Positions 10,061-13,766 of a stretch of 64,000 nucleotides of DNA are shown piece after piece. A model generated the notes under the pieces. That model ran no database searches. It saw nothing but the letters and a program-made list of their open reading frames with translations, and had not been told where the DNA came from. The stretch's first letter is position 1. The number at the start of each line of letters is the position of its first letter. The position numbers were made by a program, and so were the translations under genes. Source of the stretch: Cognatilysobacter tabacisoli (GTDB lineage Bacteria > Pseudomonadota > Gammaproteobacteria > Xanthomonadales > Xanthomonadaceae); assembly GCF_003586305.1 (NCBI RefSeq), contig NZ_QXJI01000001.1, forward strand, positions 1,240,001 to 1,304,000. Direction: 5' to 3'.

Positions 10061-10477
10061 ATGAAGCGCATCGTCCCCACTGCCGTCCATCTCGCCGCAC
10101 TGCTCGCGGCCGCCCTGTCGCTGGCGTCCGCCGCCCACGCGCATGATCCGAAGAAGGTGGCGGCGCAGCCGACTCCGACGCCGGCCACGTCCGGGCATCA
10201 CGCCGGCGACCACGGCATGCCCGGCCACGACATGAGCAAGATGACGCCGTCGCAGCAGCTGCACCACGCGATGAAGTCGGGCAGCAAGGCGATGCCGATG
10301 TCGGGCGACGTCGACCGCGACTTCGCGACGATGATGACGATGCACCACGAGCAGGCGATCAAGATGGCCGACATCCTGATCCGGCACGGCAAAAGCGCCG
10401 AGCTGAAGGCGCTGGCCCGCAAGATGAAGACCGCGCAGCAGGCCGAAATCCAGCAGATGGCCCGCTACACCAAGTAG
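10061..10477 (+). CDS. Periplasmic DUF305 protein
   Basis: The 138-residue protein starts at ATG 10061 after a ccaggagaa ribosome-binding site. A signal peptide ends near AHA at residue 27. The mature start is rich in His, Met and Asp (GHHAGDHGMPGHDMSKM). The DUF305 core follows with DRDFATMMTMHHEQAIKMA around residues 83-101 and a C-terminal helix (AQQAEIQQMARY). DUF305 proteins are ferritin-like periplasmic helical proteins often found with copper-resistance genes. Here the gene lies 132 bases behind copA on the same strand. The HH pair and surrounding Met residues could bind metal. The molecular role is not established. Confidence 0.88.
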   Translation: MKRIVPTAVHLAALLAAALSLASAAHAHDPKKVAAQPTPTPATSGHHAGDHGMPGHDMSKMTPSQQLHHAMKSGSKAMPMSGDVDRDFATMMTMHHEQAIKMADILIRHGKSAELKALARKMKTAQQAEIQQMARYTK

Positions 10478-10529
10478 CACGCAGGCGGGCCTGCGACGCG
10501 GCCTCCCGGGCGCACGGCGTTCTTCGCGC

Positions 10530-12224
10530 CTACCCCAGCGCCGCGTCGTGCACCCCCGCGACCGCACGGCCCGACGGATCGGCGGCGTTCGCGAATGCGG
10601 CGTCCCACGCGATCGCGGCCGGCGACGAGCACGCGATCGACTTGCCGCCGGGCACAGTCGCCGCCGCGGCAGCGCCGGGGAAGTACTGCTCGAAGATGTG
10701 CCGGTACAGGTAGGCCTCCTTGGTCTGCGGCGGGTTGTGCGGAAAGCGGGCGGCCGCGGCGGCGAACACGCGGTCGCTGACCTGCGCCTCGGCGTGCGCC
10801 TTGAGGCCGTCGATCCAGCCGTAGCCGACGCCGTCGCTGAACTGCTCCTTCTGCCGCCACAGGATCTCGTCGGGCAGGTGGCCGACGAACGCCTCGCGCA
10901 GGATCGCCTTTTCGATCGGTCGCCCGCCCTGCGGGCCCGGGCGCACGCGCTTGTGCTGCGCGTCCATGCGCATCGCGACGTCGAGGAACGCGCGGTCGAG
11001 GAACGGCACGCGCGGCTCGACGCCCCAGGCCATCATCGACTTGTTCGCGCGCAGGCAGTCGTACGCGTGCAGCGCGTCGAGCTTGCGCACCGTCTCGTCG
11101 TGGAACTCGCGCGCGTCCGGCGCCTTGTGGAAGTACAAGTAGCCGCCGAACACCTCGTCGCTGCCCTCGCCCGACAGCACCATCTTGACCCCCATCGCCT
11201 TGATCCGCCGCGCCAGCAGGAACATCGGCGTGGACGCGCGGATGGTGGTGACGTCGTAGGTCTCGACGTGGCGGATGACCTCGGGCAGCGCGTCGAGCCC
11301 TTCGTCGAACGAATAGGTGAACCCGTGGTGCACGGTGCCGAGCGCCTTCGCGGCGACCTCGGCGGCGGCGAGGTCGGGCGAGCCCGGCAGGCCGATCGCG
11401 AACGAATGCAGGCGCGGCCACCACGCCTCCGTCGCGTCGTTGTCCTCGATGCGGTGGCGGGCATAGCGCGCGGCGACCGCGGCGACCAGCGACGAGTCGA
11501 GCCCGCCCGACAGCAGCACGCCGTACGGCACGTCGGTCATCAGCTGGCGGTGCACGGCGGCCTCGAACGCCTCGCGCAGCTCGGCCAGCGGCACCTCGAC
11601 GCCCTGCGTCTTCGCGTAGTCGCGCCAGGCCGGCCTGTAGTAGCGCACCGGCTCGCCGACGGCGCTGTCGTAGTAGTGCCCGGGCGGGAACGCGGCGACG
11701 TCGGAGCAGTGGTCGACGAGTGCCTTCATCTCCGAGGCCACCATGAGCCGGCCATGCGCGTCGTGGCCCCAGTACAGCGGGCAGACGCCGATCGGGTCGC
11801 GCGCGATGAGGCAGCGCCCGGCGGCGCGGTCCCACAGCGCGAACGCGAAGATGCCGTTCAACGCGTTGAGCCACGCGCCGATGTCGGGCTGCTGCCGGTA
11901 CAGCGCGTTGATGACCTCGCAGTCCGAGCCGGTCTGGAAGTCGTACGGCGCGGCGAGCTGCTGCTTCAGCTCGCGGTGGTTGTAGATCTCGCCGTTGACC
12001 GCGAGCACGAGGTCGCCGTCGCCCGAGCGCAGCGGCTGCGCACCGCCGGCGGGGTCGACGATGGCGAGGCGCTCGTGGACGAGGATCGCGCGCGCGTCCT
12101 GGTACACGCCGCTCCAGTCCGGGCCGCGGTGGCGCTGGCGACGGGACAGGTCGAGCGCGAGGCGGCGCAGGCCGACCGCATCGTCGTCGGGTTGCAGGCC
12201 GAACAGGCCGAGGATCGAACACAT
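10530..12224 (-). CDS. asnB: Asparagine synthetase B (glutamine-hydrolysing)
   Basis: The 564-residue product makes asparagine from aspartate, glutamine and ATP. Cys2 (MCSILGLFG) is the glutaminase nucleophile after Met removal. The class II amidotransferase domain fills about residues 2-190 (NGEIYNH, ARDPIGVCPLYWG). The synthetase domain follows with the PP-loop LLSGGLDSSLVAAV near residue 233 and SGEGSDEVFGGY. Length and motifs match the AsnB family closely. The gene lies downstream of dapE on the same strand but behind a leader peptide and an intrinsic terminator. It is therefore probably controlled by asparagine supply through transcription attenuation (see the attenuator entry). Its 3' end faces the DUF305 gene, with 52 bases between. 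Confidence 0.96.
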   Translation of the reverse strand: MCSILGLFGLQPDDDAVGLRRLALDLSRRQRHRGPDWSGVYQDARAILVHERLAIVDPAGGAQPLRSGDGDLVLAVNGEIYNHRELKQQLAAPYDFQTGSDCEVINALYRQQPDIGAWLNALNGIFAFALWDRAAGRCLIARDPIGVCPLYWGHDAHGRLMVASEMKALVDHCSDVAAFPPGHYYDSAVGEPVRYYRPAWRDYAKTQGVEVPLAELREAFEAAVHRQLMTDVPYGVLLSGGLDSSLVAAVAARYARHRIEDNDATEAWWPRLHSFAIGLPGSPDLAAAEVAAKALGTVHHGFTYSFDEGLDALPEVIRHVETYDVTTIRASTPMFLLARRIKAMGVKMVLSGEGSDEVFGGYLYFHKAPDAREFHDETVRKLDALHAYDCLRANKSMMAWGVEPRVPFLDRAFLDVAMRMDAQHKRVRPGPQGGRPIEKAILREAFVGHLPDEILWRQKEQFSDGVGYGWIDGLKAHAEAQVSDRVFAAAAARFPHNPPQTKEAYLYRHIFEQYFPGAAAAATVPGGKSIACSSPAAIAWDAAFANAADPSGRAVAGVHDAALG

Positions 12225-12272
12225 GGGACGGGCTCCGATGGGGTTGGACGGGGATCGGCGAGTCGCGGAAAC

Positions 12273-12300
12273 AAAAAAGCCCGCACTTCGCAGTGCAGGC
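12273..12300 (-). terminator. Intrinsic terminator upstream of asnB (3:4 hairpin of the attenuator)
   Basis: On the minus strand the RNA reads GCCUGCACU, loop GCGA, AGUGCGGGC, then six U. This is a 9-bp stem with one G-U pair, a GNRA tetraloop and a U tract. It lies 48 bases before the asnB start and 33 bases after the leader-peptide stop, so it would stop transcription before asnB unless disrupted. Confidence 0.9.
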
Positions 12301-12397
12301 CGGGGAGAGCGATGAGGTGCGTGGAGCTAGGTGCTAATCGCCGGCCTGTGGAGGGTTGGCGTTGTTATTCCGGTTGGCGTTGCGGCGCAGGCCGGCC
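12273..12397 (-). promoter_or_regulatory. Asparagine-responsive transcription attenuator of asnB (proposed)
   Basis: Four ordered RNA segments are visible on the minus strand. Segment 1 is GCCGGCCUG (12396-12388). The Asn codons follow. Segment 2 is CAGGCCGGC (12348-12340), the exact complement of segment 1. Segment 3 is CCGGCCUG (12303-12296), an 8-bp complement of segment 2, which overlaps the 5' arm of the terminator. Segment 4 is AGUGCGGGC (12287-12279). Pairings 1:2 plus 3:4 terminate; pairing 2:3 prevents the terminator. Ribosomes stalled on Asn codons would mask segment 1 and favour 2:3, switching asnB on when charged tRNA-Asn is scarce. The sequences are seen; the mechanism is inferred from classic attenuators. 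Confidence 0.8.
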
Positions 12398-12480
12398 ACG
12401 GTCGTCATCGCGCACGCGGCGCACGCACGGCGCGGGGCGCGGGCGGCTGCGGCGGTGGCGAGGGGGCGGACGGCGGGCAT
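12334..12480 (-). CDS. Asn-rich leader peptide of asnB
   Basis: The ORF has 48 codons from ATG 12480 (weak ribosome-binding site GGAT, spacing 7) or 24 codons from the in-frame ATG 12408, and stops at 12334. The C-terminal part reads RRNANRNNNANPPQAGD: six Asn in nine residues, encoded by five AAC and one AAT. Segments 1 and 2 of the attenuator lie in the codons for AGL and QAG on either side of the Asn run. The peptide itself probably has no function; its translation would report Asn-tRNA charging. Which ATG is used cannot be decided from sequence, but both give the same reading frame through the Asn codons. Confidence 0.78.
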   Translation of the reverse strand: MPAVRPLATAAAARAPRRACAACAMTTVAGLRRNANRNNNANPPQAGD

Positions 12481-12617
12481 GGCTCGATCCTGCGTGCGGC
12501 CTTGGGGTCTTTGCAACCCTTACATCGGAAACCAACGGCGGCCGCCGACGCGTCCGGACAGCGCGCGCGTAACGGCCGCGACGCGCGCCGGGCGCGGTGC
12601 CCGGCGCCGGCTGTCCG

Positions 12618-13766
12618 TCAGGCCAGAAGGCGCTCGATCAGCGCGCGGTACAGATCCGGCAGGCGCTCGAGGTCGGCGACGCGGACGTGCTCGTCGACTT
12701 TGTGGATGCTGGCGTTGACCGGGCCGATCTCGATGCAGTGCGCGCCGAGCGGCGCGATGAAGCGCGCGTCCGAGGTGCCGCCGCCGGTGCTCTCCTCCGG
12801 CGCGGCGCCGGCGAACGCGGCCAGCACGTCGCGCGCGGCGGCGCGCAGTGGACCTTCCGGCGTGTAGAACGGCTCGCCGCTGCGGTGCCAGTGGATGCTG
12901 CAGTCCGGGCCATTTGCGTCGAGCCCGTGCGCGGCTAGGATCGACTCGCATTCGGCGACCAGCGCGTCGGCGCTCCACGTCGGGTTGTAGCGCAGGTTGA
13001 ACAGCACCTGCAGTTCGCCGGGGATGACGTTGTTGGCGCCGGTGCCCGCGTGCACGTTGCTGACCTGCAGGCTGGTCGGCGGGAAACTCTCGTAGCCGTC
13101 GTCCCAGCGCCGCGCGGTCAGCGCGGCCAGCGCCGGCAGCGCCTGGTGGATCGGGTTGCGCGCCTTCTCGGGATACGCGACGTGGCCCTGCACGCCGCGC
13201 ACCGTCAGCGTCGCCGACAGGCTGCCGCGGCGGCCGACGCGCAGCAGGTCGCCGAGCACGCGCGTCGACGAGGGCTCGCCGGTCACGCACCAGTCGATGC
13301 GCTCGCCGCGCGCGCGGAACAGATCGGCGACCTTGCGCACGCCGTCGATCGCATCGCCCTCCTCGTCCGAGGTCAGCAGCACGGCGATGCGCCCGGCGTG
13401 CCGCGGGTGCGCCCGCACGAACTGCTCGGCGGCAAGCACGAACGCGGCGACGCTGCCCTTCATGTCGGCGGCGCCGCGGCCGTACAGCACCCCGTCGCGG
13501 ACCTCGGGCGCGAACGGGTCGCTGGCCCAGGCCTCGCGCGGGCCCGGCGGCACCACGTCGGTGTGGCCGAGCAGCACCAGCGTCGGGCCGGAAGCCGCAT
13601 CGCCATGGGTCGCCCACAGGTTGTCGACCTCGCCGAAGCGCAGGTGTTCGCAGGTGAACCCGGCGGCGCCGAGGCGCTGCGCGATCACGGCCTGGCAGCC
13701 TTCGTCGGCCGGCGTCACCGAGGCGCGGCGGATCAGGTCGCAGGTCAGGTCGAGGACGTCGCTCAT
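12618..13766 (-). CDS. dapE: Succinyl-diaminopimelate desuccinylase
   Basis: The 382-residue zinc metallopeptidase-fold enzyme (M20 family) removes succinate from N-succinyl-LL-diaminopimelate in the lysine and peptidoglycan precursor pathway. Visible metal-site blocks are [11 protein letters not shown] (His near 69), [15 protein letters not shown] (Asp near 100) and [11 protein letters not shown] (catalytic Glu pair), then [12 protein letters not shown] near the C-terminus. Length is normal. The start overlaps the stop of the preceding small membrane-protein gene by four bases, so it is part of the map-glnD-dapD-arsC-like-dapE minus-strand operon. dapD, the succinyltransferase of the same pathway, is three genes upstream. 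A GC-rich hairpin without U tract (12585-12607) follows the stop. Confidence 0.96.

Follow-up and report, generated by a model that had tools for sequence, protein, structure and literature searches.

A predicted asparagine-sensing attenuator in front of asnB in Cognatilysobacter tabacisoli and its relatives

Is the synthesis of asparagine in Cognatilysobacter tabacisoli governed by an attenuator that reads asparagine codons? The question is raised by a stretch of 64 kb (the window, C1:1240001-1304000) of the 3.12-Mb genome of this bacterium, in which a short open reading frame rich in Asn codons, followed by an intrinsic terminator, stands before asnB; dapE lies upstream of the leader on asnB's strand. 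Ribosome-mediated attenuators of proteobacterial amino-acid operons are of the trpL, hisL, leuL, ilv, thrL and pheL type, and a comparative survey of proteobacterial attenuators was reportedly made by Vitreschak and colleagues in 2004. An earlier note on this DNA, which knew of no such system for asparagine, proposed that ribosome stalling on the Asn codons switches asnB on. Here we examine that proposal by a computational comparison of the region among relatives.

The product of asnB is identified as AsnB by the family model NF006949 (asparagine synthase B; 841.8 bits against a cut-off of 499) and carries the Pfam domains Asn_synthase and GATase_7. A family search of the window's genome found AsnRS (636 bits, cut-off 342.6) and no match for GatB, so that tRNA-Asn is presumably charged from free asparagine; charging of tRNA-Asn would then presumably report the product of AsnB, as free asparagine feeds Asn-tRNA. 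The features of the putative switch are collected in Table 1.

Table 1. Elements of the putative attenuator and its gene, in window coordinates
Feature	Position	Strand	Basis or remark
Predicted -35 element TTGCAA	12511..12516	-	TTG here in 73 of 74 non-redundant loci
Predicted -10 element CAGGAT	12487..12492	-	18 nt behind the -35 element, 6 nt before the ATG
Leader peptide ORF, 48 codons	12334..12480	-	ATG 12480 to TAG 12334
Asn run NANRNNNAN	12355..12381	-	Six Asn codons in nine residues
Segment 1 of the shared 1:2 (pause) hairpin	12354..12361	-	RNAalifold, 13 Lysobacter-type loci
Segment 2	12339..12348	-	Pairs with segment 1 (12339-12346) or, exclusively, with segment 3 (12341-12348)
Segment 3 CCGGCCTG	12296..12303	-	8 bp exact, 12303-12296 with CAGGCCGG (12348-12341); overlaps the 5' arm of the terminator
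Terminator hairpin 3:4, 10 bp, GCGA loop	12278..12301	-	Fold and conservation; GGCCTGCACT GCGA AGTGCGGGCT, 12301-12278
T6 tract of the terminator	12273..12278	-	Read from the sequence
asnB, glutamine-hydrolysing asparagine synthase B	10530..12224	-	Regulated gene in the proposed switch

For the comparison, 80 named loci were taken by AsnB protein, most with 1.5 kb upstream, and more were added from the family and order of the window. The first 88 loci all have a short Asn-rich ORF (4 to 11 Asn) before asnB, followed in 85 by a terminator under a strict scan; under somewhat relaxed settings, all of L001-L120 and L131 have a terminator no more than 90 nt behind the ORF. The former 120 are the loci with the closest AsnB and comprise named Xanthomonadaceae/Lysobacteraceae, a few loosely named records, and further genomes of the window's family (f1) and of two other families of the same order (f2 and f12); L131 was added because the pattern was visible there. 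These 121 loci hold 110 distinct leader regions, reduced to 74 after near-identical ones were removed. Alignments were made of 13 Lysobacter-type sequences (A1) and of 46 of the Xanthomonas type (A2).

The leader ORF with six Asn codons in nine, as first noted from the window, is present base by base, and in relatives both the reading frame and the Asn run are kept, with AAC and AAU both in use. Across the 74 non-redundant loci, Asn makes up 20.3% of leader residues, and the best window of nine residues contains 3 to 7 Asn (3 in three loci). As the leader is by definition the ORF richest in Asn, the picking itself is no test; the control is a comparison with 1,628 other open segments from the same upstream DNA, chosen without an Asn criterion, in which the maximum was 3 Asn in nine residues, reached by 24. 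A shorter version of the window's ORF starting at ATG 12408 (24 codons) was dropped, the promoter pattern and its spacing being conserved at ATG 12480.

At the main Asn columns of A2, Asn is present in 21 to 42 of the 46 sequences; in several columns AAC and AAU are nearly balanced (16/16, 14/12 and 19/21, in that order), as expected if the amino acid rather than the base is kept, and others are one-sided (36/2, 10/32 and 6/36). Over all leaders, AAU accounts for 231 of 488 Asn codons, against 70 of 658 in the bodies of asnB (odds ratio 7.55), with T ending 204 of the 1,175 other leader codons that end in C or T. By type, the share of AAU is 24/74 in Lysobacter-type leaders and 46/93 in those of f12 and f2. 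The preference for AAU may sharpen sensing or keep the Asn run unstructured.

A generic promoter consensus scan of positions 10300-12800 found no promoter. Promoters ending 5-8 nt ahead of in-frame ATGs that give 15-60 codons were also scored: the best-scoring ATG is preceded by a -35 element with TTG in 73 of the 74 loci (and a C as the next base in 72), a spacer of 17 nt in 44 loci and 18 nt in 27, and a distance from the -10 element to the ATG of 6 nt in 46 loci and 7 nt in 26 (together 72/74). The one locus without TTG is L131, which differs in layout too. The median score is 10 for the leader ATGs and 5 for 469 other ATGs, three of which reach 10, the choice of the best ATG per locus somewhat favouring high scores. 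Because the ATG follows the conserved sigma-70-like pattern at 6-7 nt, the leader mRNA is probably leaderless, with a predicted transcript start at or near 12480. As this puts the predicted promoter ahead of the leader, transcripts of asnB should include the terminator.

The intrinsic terminator with a GCGA loop and six T before asnB stands as originally described. Its stem has 9 bp, or 10 bp if an outer G-U pair is included, and 32 nt separate it from the stop codon of the leader. Its predicted folding energy is -18.1 kcal/mol (z -4.35; one of 200 shuffles equally good). In A2, 99.0% of cells are paired, with 8 both-side changes, and in A1 the 8 shared pairs are formed in 100% of cells, with 9 both-side changes; in neither alignment did any of 500 shuffles reach as many.

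The competing structure, pairing of segment 2 with the 5' arm of this terminator, had been read from the window as well, and its 8 bp are exact. The stretch concerned folds with -18.6 kcal/mol (z -2.74; 2 of 200 shuffles equally good). In the Xanthomonas-type alignment the antiterminator is paired in 93.7% of cells, and both-side changes are rare (1 cell, a level reached in 153/500 shuffles). In the Lysobacter-type alignment a shared helix of 7 pairs is formed in 91.2% of cells, with 4 both-side cells (2/500 shuffles as high), which fall on 2 pairs, a number reached in 90/500 shuffles. There, CAGG in the leader goes with CCTG in the arm in the window, L084 and L086, and CGGG with CCCG in the other ten; in the window and L084 the terminator takes a G-U pair and the antiterminator stays Watson-Crick. 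Further compensatory cases are L105, with GCGGGT and ACCCGC, and L051, with ACGCGGGT and ACCCGCGT, where relatives have ATGCGGGT and ACCCGCAT.

Compared with synonymous-codon shuffles, which keep the peptide, the 2:3 duplex has z < -1 in 57 of the 74 loci and p <= 0.05 in 27; among other stretches of the same upstream DNA it ranks within the best 5% in 51 of 74. The window's own duplex is no stronger than its synonymous shuffles (z +0.5), and among the 13 Lysobacter-type loci a value clearly under -1 is reached by L115 alone (-3.0), with L105 at -1.0, so that for the Lysobacter type taken together this test adds little in favour of 2:3. Over the set of loci, then, the antiterminator is exclusive with the terminator and under selection; the window taken alone does not display this. 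The comparison with relatives for which the earlier note had called thus came out with Asn codons, terminator and 2:3 antiterminator conserved and co-varying.

For the pause hairpin, the outcome was mixed. The codons for AGL (12396-12388) and QAG (12348-12340), named at the outset as the 1:2 helix, are indeed exact reverse complements over 9 bp in the window, but as the common pause hairpin this helix was set aside, since it is kept in 5 and missing from the other 8 of the 13 Lysobacter-type loci. When the segment up to the first Asn was taken and G-U pairs were allowed, 9 pairs were counted in the window, L003 and L004; L002 and L015 have 8, at the same motif. Against shuffled segments, its length stands out only in the window (7/300; 57-142 of 300 in the other four), and its duplex energy is good in L002 (6/300) and not in the window (81/300). 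It may be an extra or lineage-specific arm beside a more widely shared hairpin, which sits at the 3' end of the Asn run.

In the window this shared hairpin joins 12354-12361 with 12339-12346 and keeps 6 of 7 pairs; because the latter stretch overlaps the antiterminator arm 12341-12348, pairings 1:2 and 2:3 are mutually exclusive. In A1 the hairpin reads CGCCAGCC...GGCCGGCG and is paired in 93.4% of cells, with weak covariation (its both-side changes were reached in 67/500 shuffles). The Xanthomonas-type counterpart (A2 columns 27-31/65-69 and 39-46/51-58) is formed in 88.8% of cells, with 6 both-side cells and none of 500 shuffles as high, and in part of the third type it appears as ACCCG...CGGGT (alignment A4). 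The fold of the whole 241-nt leader has no excess stability (z -0.18; 81/200 shuffles equally good), which is no requirement for a switch.

The effect of ribosome position on folding was simulated, crudely, at the 74 loci. With the ribosome masked on the middle Asn codon, upstream RNA captures segment 3 ahead of the appearance of segment 4 in 74/74, and it does so in 67/74 with the ribosome on the last Asn codon; a ribosome placed at the stop codon lets the terminator form in 74/74. Once the RNA is complete, the terminator is still the minimum-energy structure in 51/74 with the ribosome on the middle Asn codon (the window included) and in 68/74 with the ribosome on the last, so that kinetic capture of segment 3 must be assumed; attenuation of trp is likewise generally regarded as kinetic. 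The folding test discriminates only to a limited degree, as segment 3 also finds at least 5 upstream pairs in 33/74 loci with the ribosome at the stop codon (9 pairs in the window) and in 68/74 without a ribosome, in which case the terminator is missing from the lowest-energy fold of the window.

Taken together, the conserved and co-varying Asn codons, terminator and 2:3 pairing make ribosome-mediated attenuation by charged tRNA-Asn the best explanation, as the earlier note had supposed, and we hold it very likely, on sequence grounds, that this element governs asnB as a transcription attenuator responsive to charged tRNA-Asn. The steps from translation and stalling through kinetic capture of segment 3 to derepression by Asn shortage we infer as follows. 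Transcription would start on the leader ATG or no more than a base or two away from it, and translation would begin on a leaderless mRNA. When Asn-tRNA is ample, the ribosome would pass the Asn codons, reach the stop codon and cover segment 2, leaving segment 3 to pair with segment 4, and transcription would end before asnB. When Asn-tRNA is short, the ribosome would stall on the Asn codons and cover segment 1, segment 2 would catch segment 3 as it emerges, no terminator would form and asnB would be read.

Four other readings have to be weighed. The best placed of them, which we nevertheless regard as improbable, is that the leader acts on translation or mRNA stability, stalling in the upstream ORF altering access to the start of asnB, with the hairpin merely marking an mRNA end. 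The leader ORF and asnB would share one transcript, and stalling could conceivably alter its stability; against this, the terminator lies a median of 54.5 nt ahead of asnB (range 26-207), so the start lies outside the paired segments, and the hairpin is a canonical one with a T tract whose 5' arm co-varies with segment 2.

Slightly less probable still is that the small protein itself is functional, for example as a free peptide, and that its Asn richness serves that function. An attenuator leader peptide, peTrpL, has been reported to act in trans (PMC7298713), which gives this reading a precedent. In the present case, however, the Asn runs are surrounded by unlike peptides in the three lineages, with little in common except the Asn run: Lysobacter-type leaders end in NNNNRNNASLPRAGD or similar, those of the Xanthomonas type in NNANRNNLRANNRARPMRVCD or similar, and those of f12 and f2 in LNNNNANNNTRIDGWAGV, NNRANNNANRWRARA or NNRNANNGCPWGGPGV. 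Where C-terminal residues are alike across lineages, they track the nucleotides of segment 2, and the leader peptide has no match in Pfam or NCBIfam.

That the hairpin is simply the terminator of dapE, the Asn ORF being incidental, we reject as very improbable. It draws on the position of dapE, upstream and on the same strand in the window; yet among the 70 loci longer than 1.6 kb just 31 showed a dapE-like sequence (of the 39 lacking it, L047 has a mere 344 nt upstream), and leader and terminator stay with asnB where it was not found, which largely refutes this reading. The Asn run is moreover kept in unrelated peptides, and the ORF is separated from dapE by a promoter-like pattern. Least credible of all is direct, translation-independent binding of Asn or tRNA-Asn by a riboswitch or T-box. 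Firmicutes T-box riboswitches, which control Asn genes via uncharged tRNA-Asn and termination, offer a model; they bind tRNA directly and have no leader peptide. The features conserved here are in-frame codons, and neither the window nor 10 related loci gave a match to any Rfam family (amino-acid leaders and T-box included) at its gathering score. An Rfam match to OmrA-B was discarded as at chance level (E 0.87).

How far does the predicted attenuator reach? In a survey of the window's family with one genome per genus (40 genera, genome G039 included), 30 genera with an AsnB of 70% or more identity to that of the window could be assessed, and 29 of them carry it. In two of the 29 (L163 and L175) no more than 3 Asn stand in nine residues; two were scored by eye (L176, with its leader further away, and L189, whose start the script had missed), and L172, at a contig edge, was left out of the count. 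The exception is L183 (G003), which lacks the element despite an AsnB 77% identical to the window's. The asnB match at L183 contains an internal TGA, with no leader upstream; it is possible that gene and switch are decaying together there. In all nine genera with an AsnB of 64-66% identity, probably another AsnB lineage, the element is absent (L199 being judged on 476 nt upstream). This pattern of presence and absence indicates that the switch goes with one AsnB lineage.

Beyond these, 36 further upstream regions of asnB from the order (L121-L156, G039 and one f12 genome, L134, among them) included 33 that were readable, of which L131 was the sole candidate. L131, from a relative in another family of the order, has MFAIYNTINTTNNRLLRSAGSF followed by a GC-rich terminator before asnB, and TTGACA...GATAGT further upstream; it is perhaps an independently evolved, leadered Asn attenuator. 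Among 274 genomes across the class, four carry an AsnB whose E-value is 1e-150 or better; three of these genomes belong to the window's family, and the fourth locus (L161) has no leader. No similar DNA was found in a phage collection, which was searched for a phage origin of the element. A second Asn attenuator, before asnS in the window's genome, was considered and dropped, the single short ATG ORF listed upstream being without Asn.

A covariance model built from the Asn leaders has matches in 220 of 294 genomes, a number that does not count Asn leaders: weak matches occur also in genomes that lack one, and among the weak matches are ilvC leaders and other or reverse-strand terminators (11 loci inspected). 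Two tandem matches before one asnB, with a run of N between them (L217 and L220, G281:C83), are probably a scaffold artefact. The model's best matches away from asnB are the ilvC leaders, in 4 of 12 genomes: branched-chain leaders before an ilvC-like ORF (L222, L225, L226 and L235, in the window's family, in each case close to the middle of the locus), with the peptides LVLVLITSP or LVLVLITQP. They share the layout, a similar C-terminal segment 2 and the terminator arms CCCGC and GCGGG with the Asn leaders, and differ in coding Leu, Val, Ile and Thr rather than Asn, ilvC having been identified by eye. Leaders of the same layout before ilvC suggest that the attenuation mechanism is at home in the family. 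The window's own genome has no ilvC leader; its ilvC follows directly on an ilvD-like gene (by eye).

As in classical attenuators, an ORF rich in codons for the end product, alternative 2:3 and 3:4 pairings with a putative 1:2 pairing, and a terminator precede a biosynthetic gene. By contrast, the amino acid and gene are here asparagine and asnB, segment 2 is contained entirely in the leader ORF, immediately ahead of its stop codon, and the leader mRNA is probably leaderless. A leaderless leader would have parallels in trpL of Sinorhizobium meliloti and in the Cys uORFs of mycobacteria, in which the ORF likewise begins at the 5' end of the transcript; these concern other amino acids and other classes or phyla. 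Among the matches listed from the open-licence literature there was no asparagine leader peptide or attenuator and no account of asnB control in the Xanthomonas, Stenotrophomonas and Lysobacter group; this does not contradict the earlier note, although a report elsewhere could have been missed. Passages of PMC2965389 and PMC3771888 contain no Asn attenuator either.

Asparagine would be a new amino-acid specificity of the classical mechanism. With moderate confidence, we suggest that this is the first described Asn-specific attenuator, that it predates the split of the window's family from two sister families of its order, and that it is leaderless and tuned by a preference for the rarer AAU codon, whose slow wobble decoding would serve to sense Asn shortage. 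A switch of this kind would produce a short RNA that ends at the terminator and has its 5' end at the leader ATG, and read-through into asnB on Asn shortage. If the reading is true, asparagine would be a further entry among the few amino acids known to be sensed through a leader peptide, and this in the group to which Xanthomonas, Stenotrophomonas, Lysobacter and their relatives belong. These unlike leader peptides with the same Asn run would then let selection for particular codons, as opposed to selection on the peptide, be studied cleanly by comparison.
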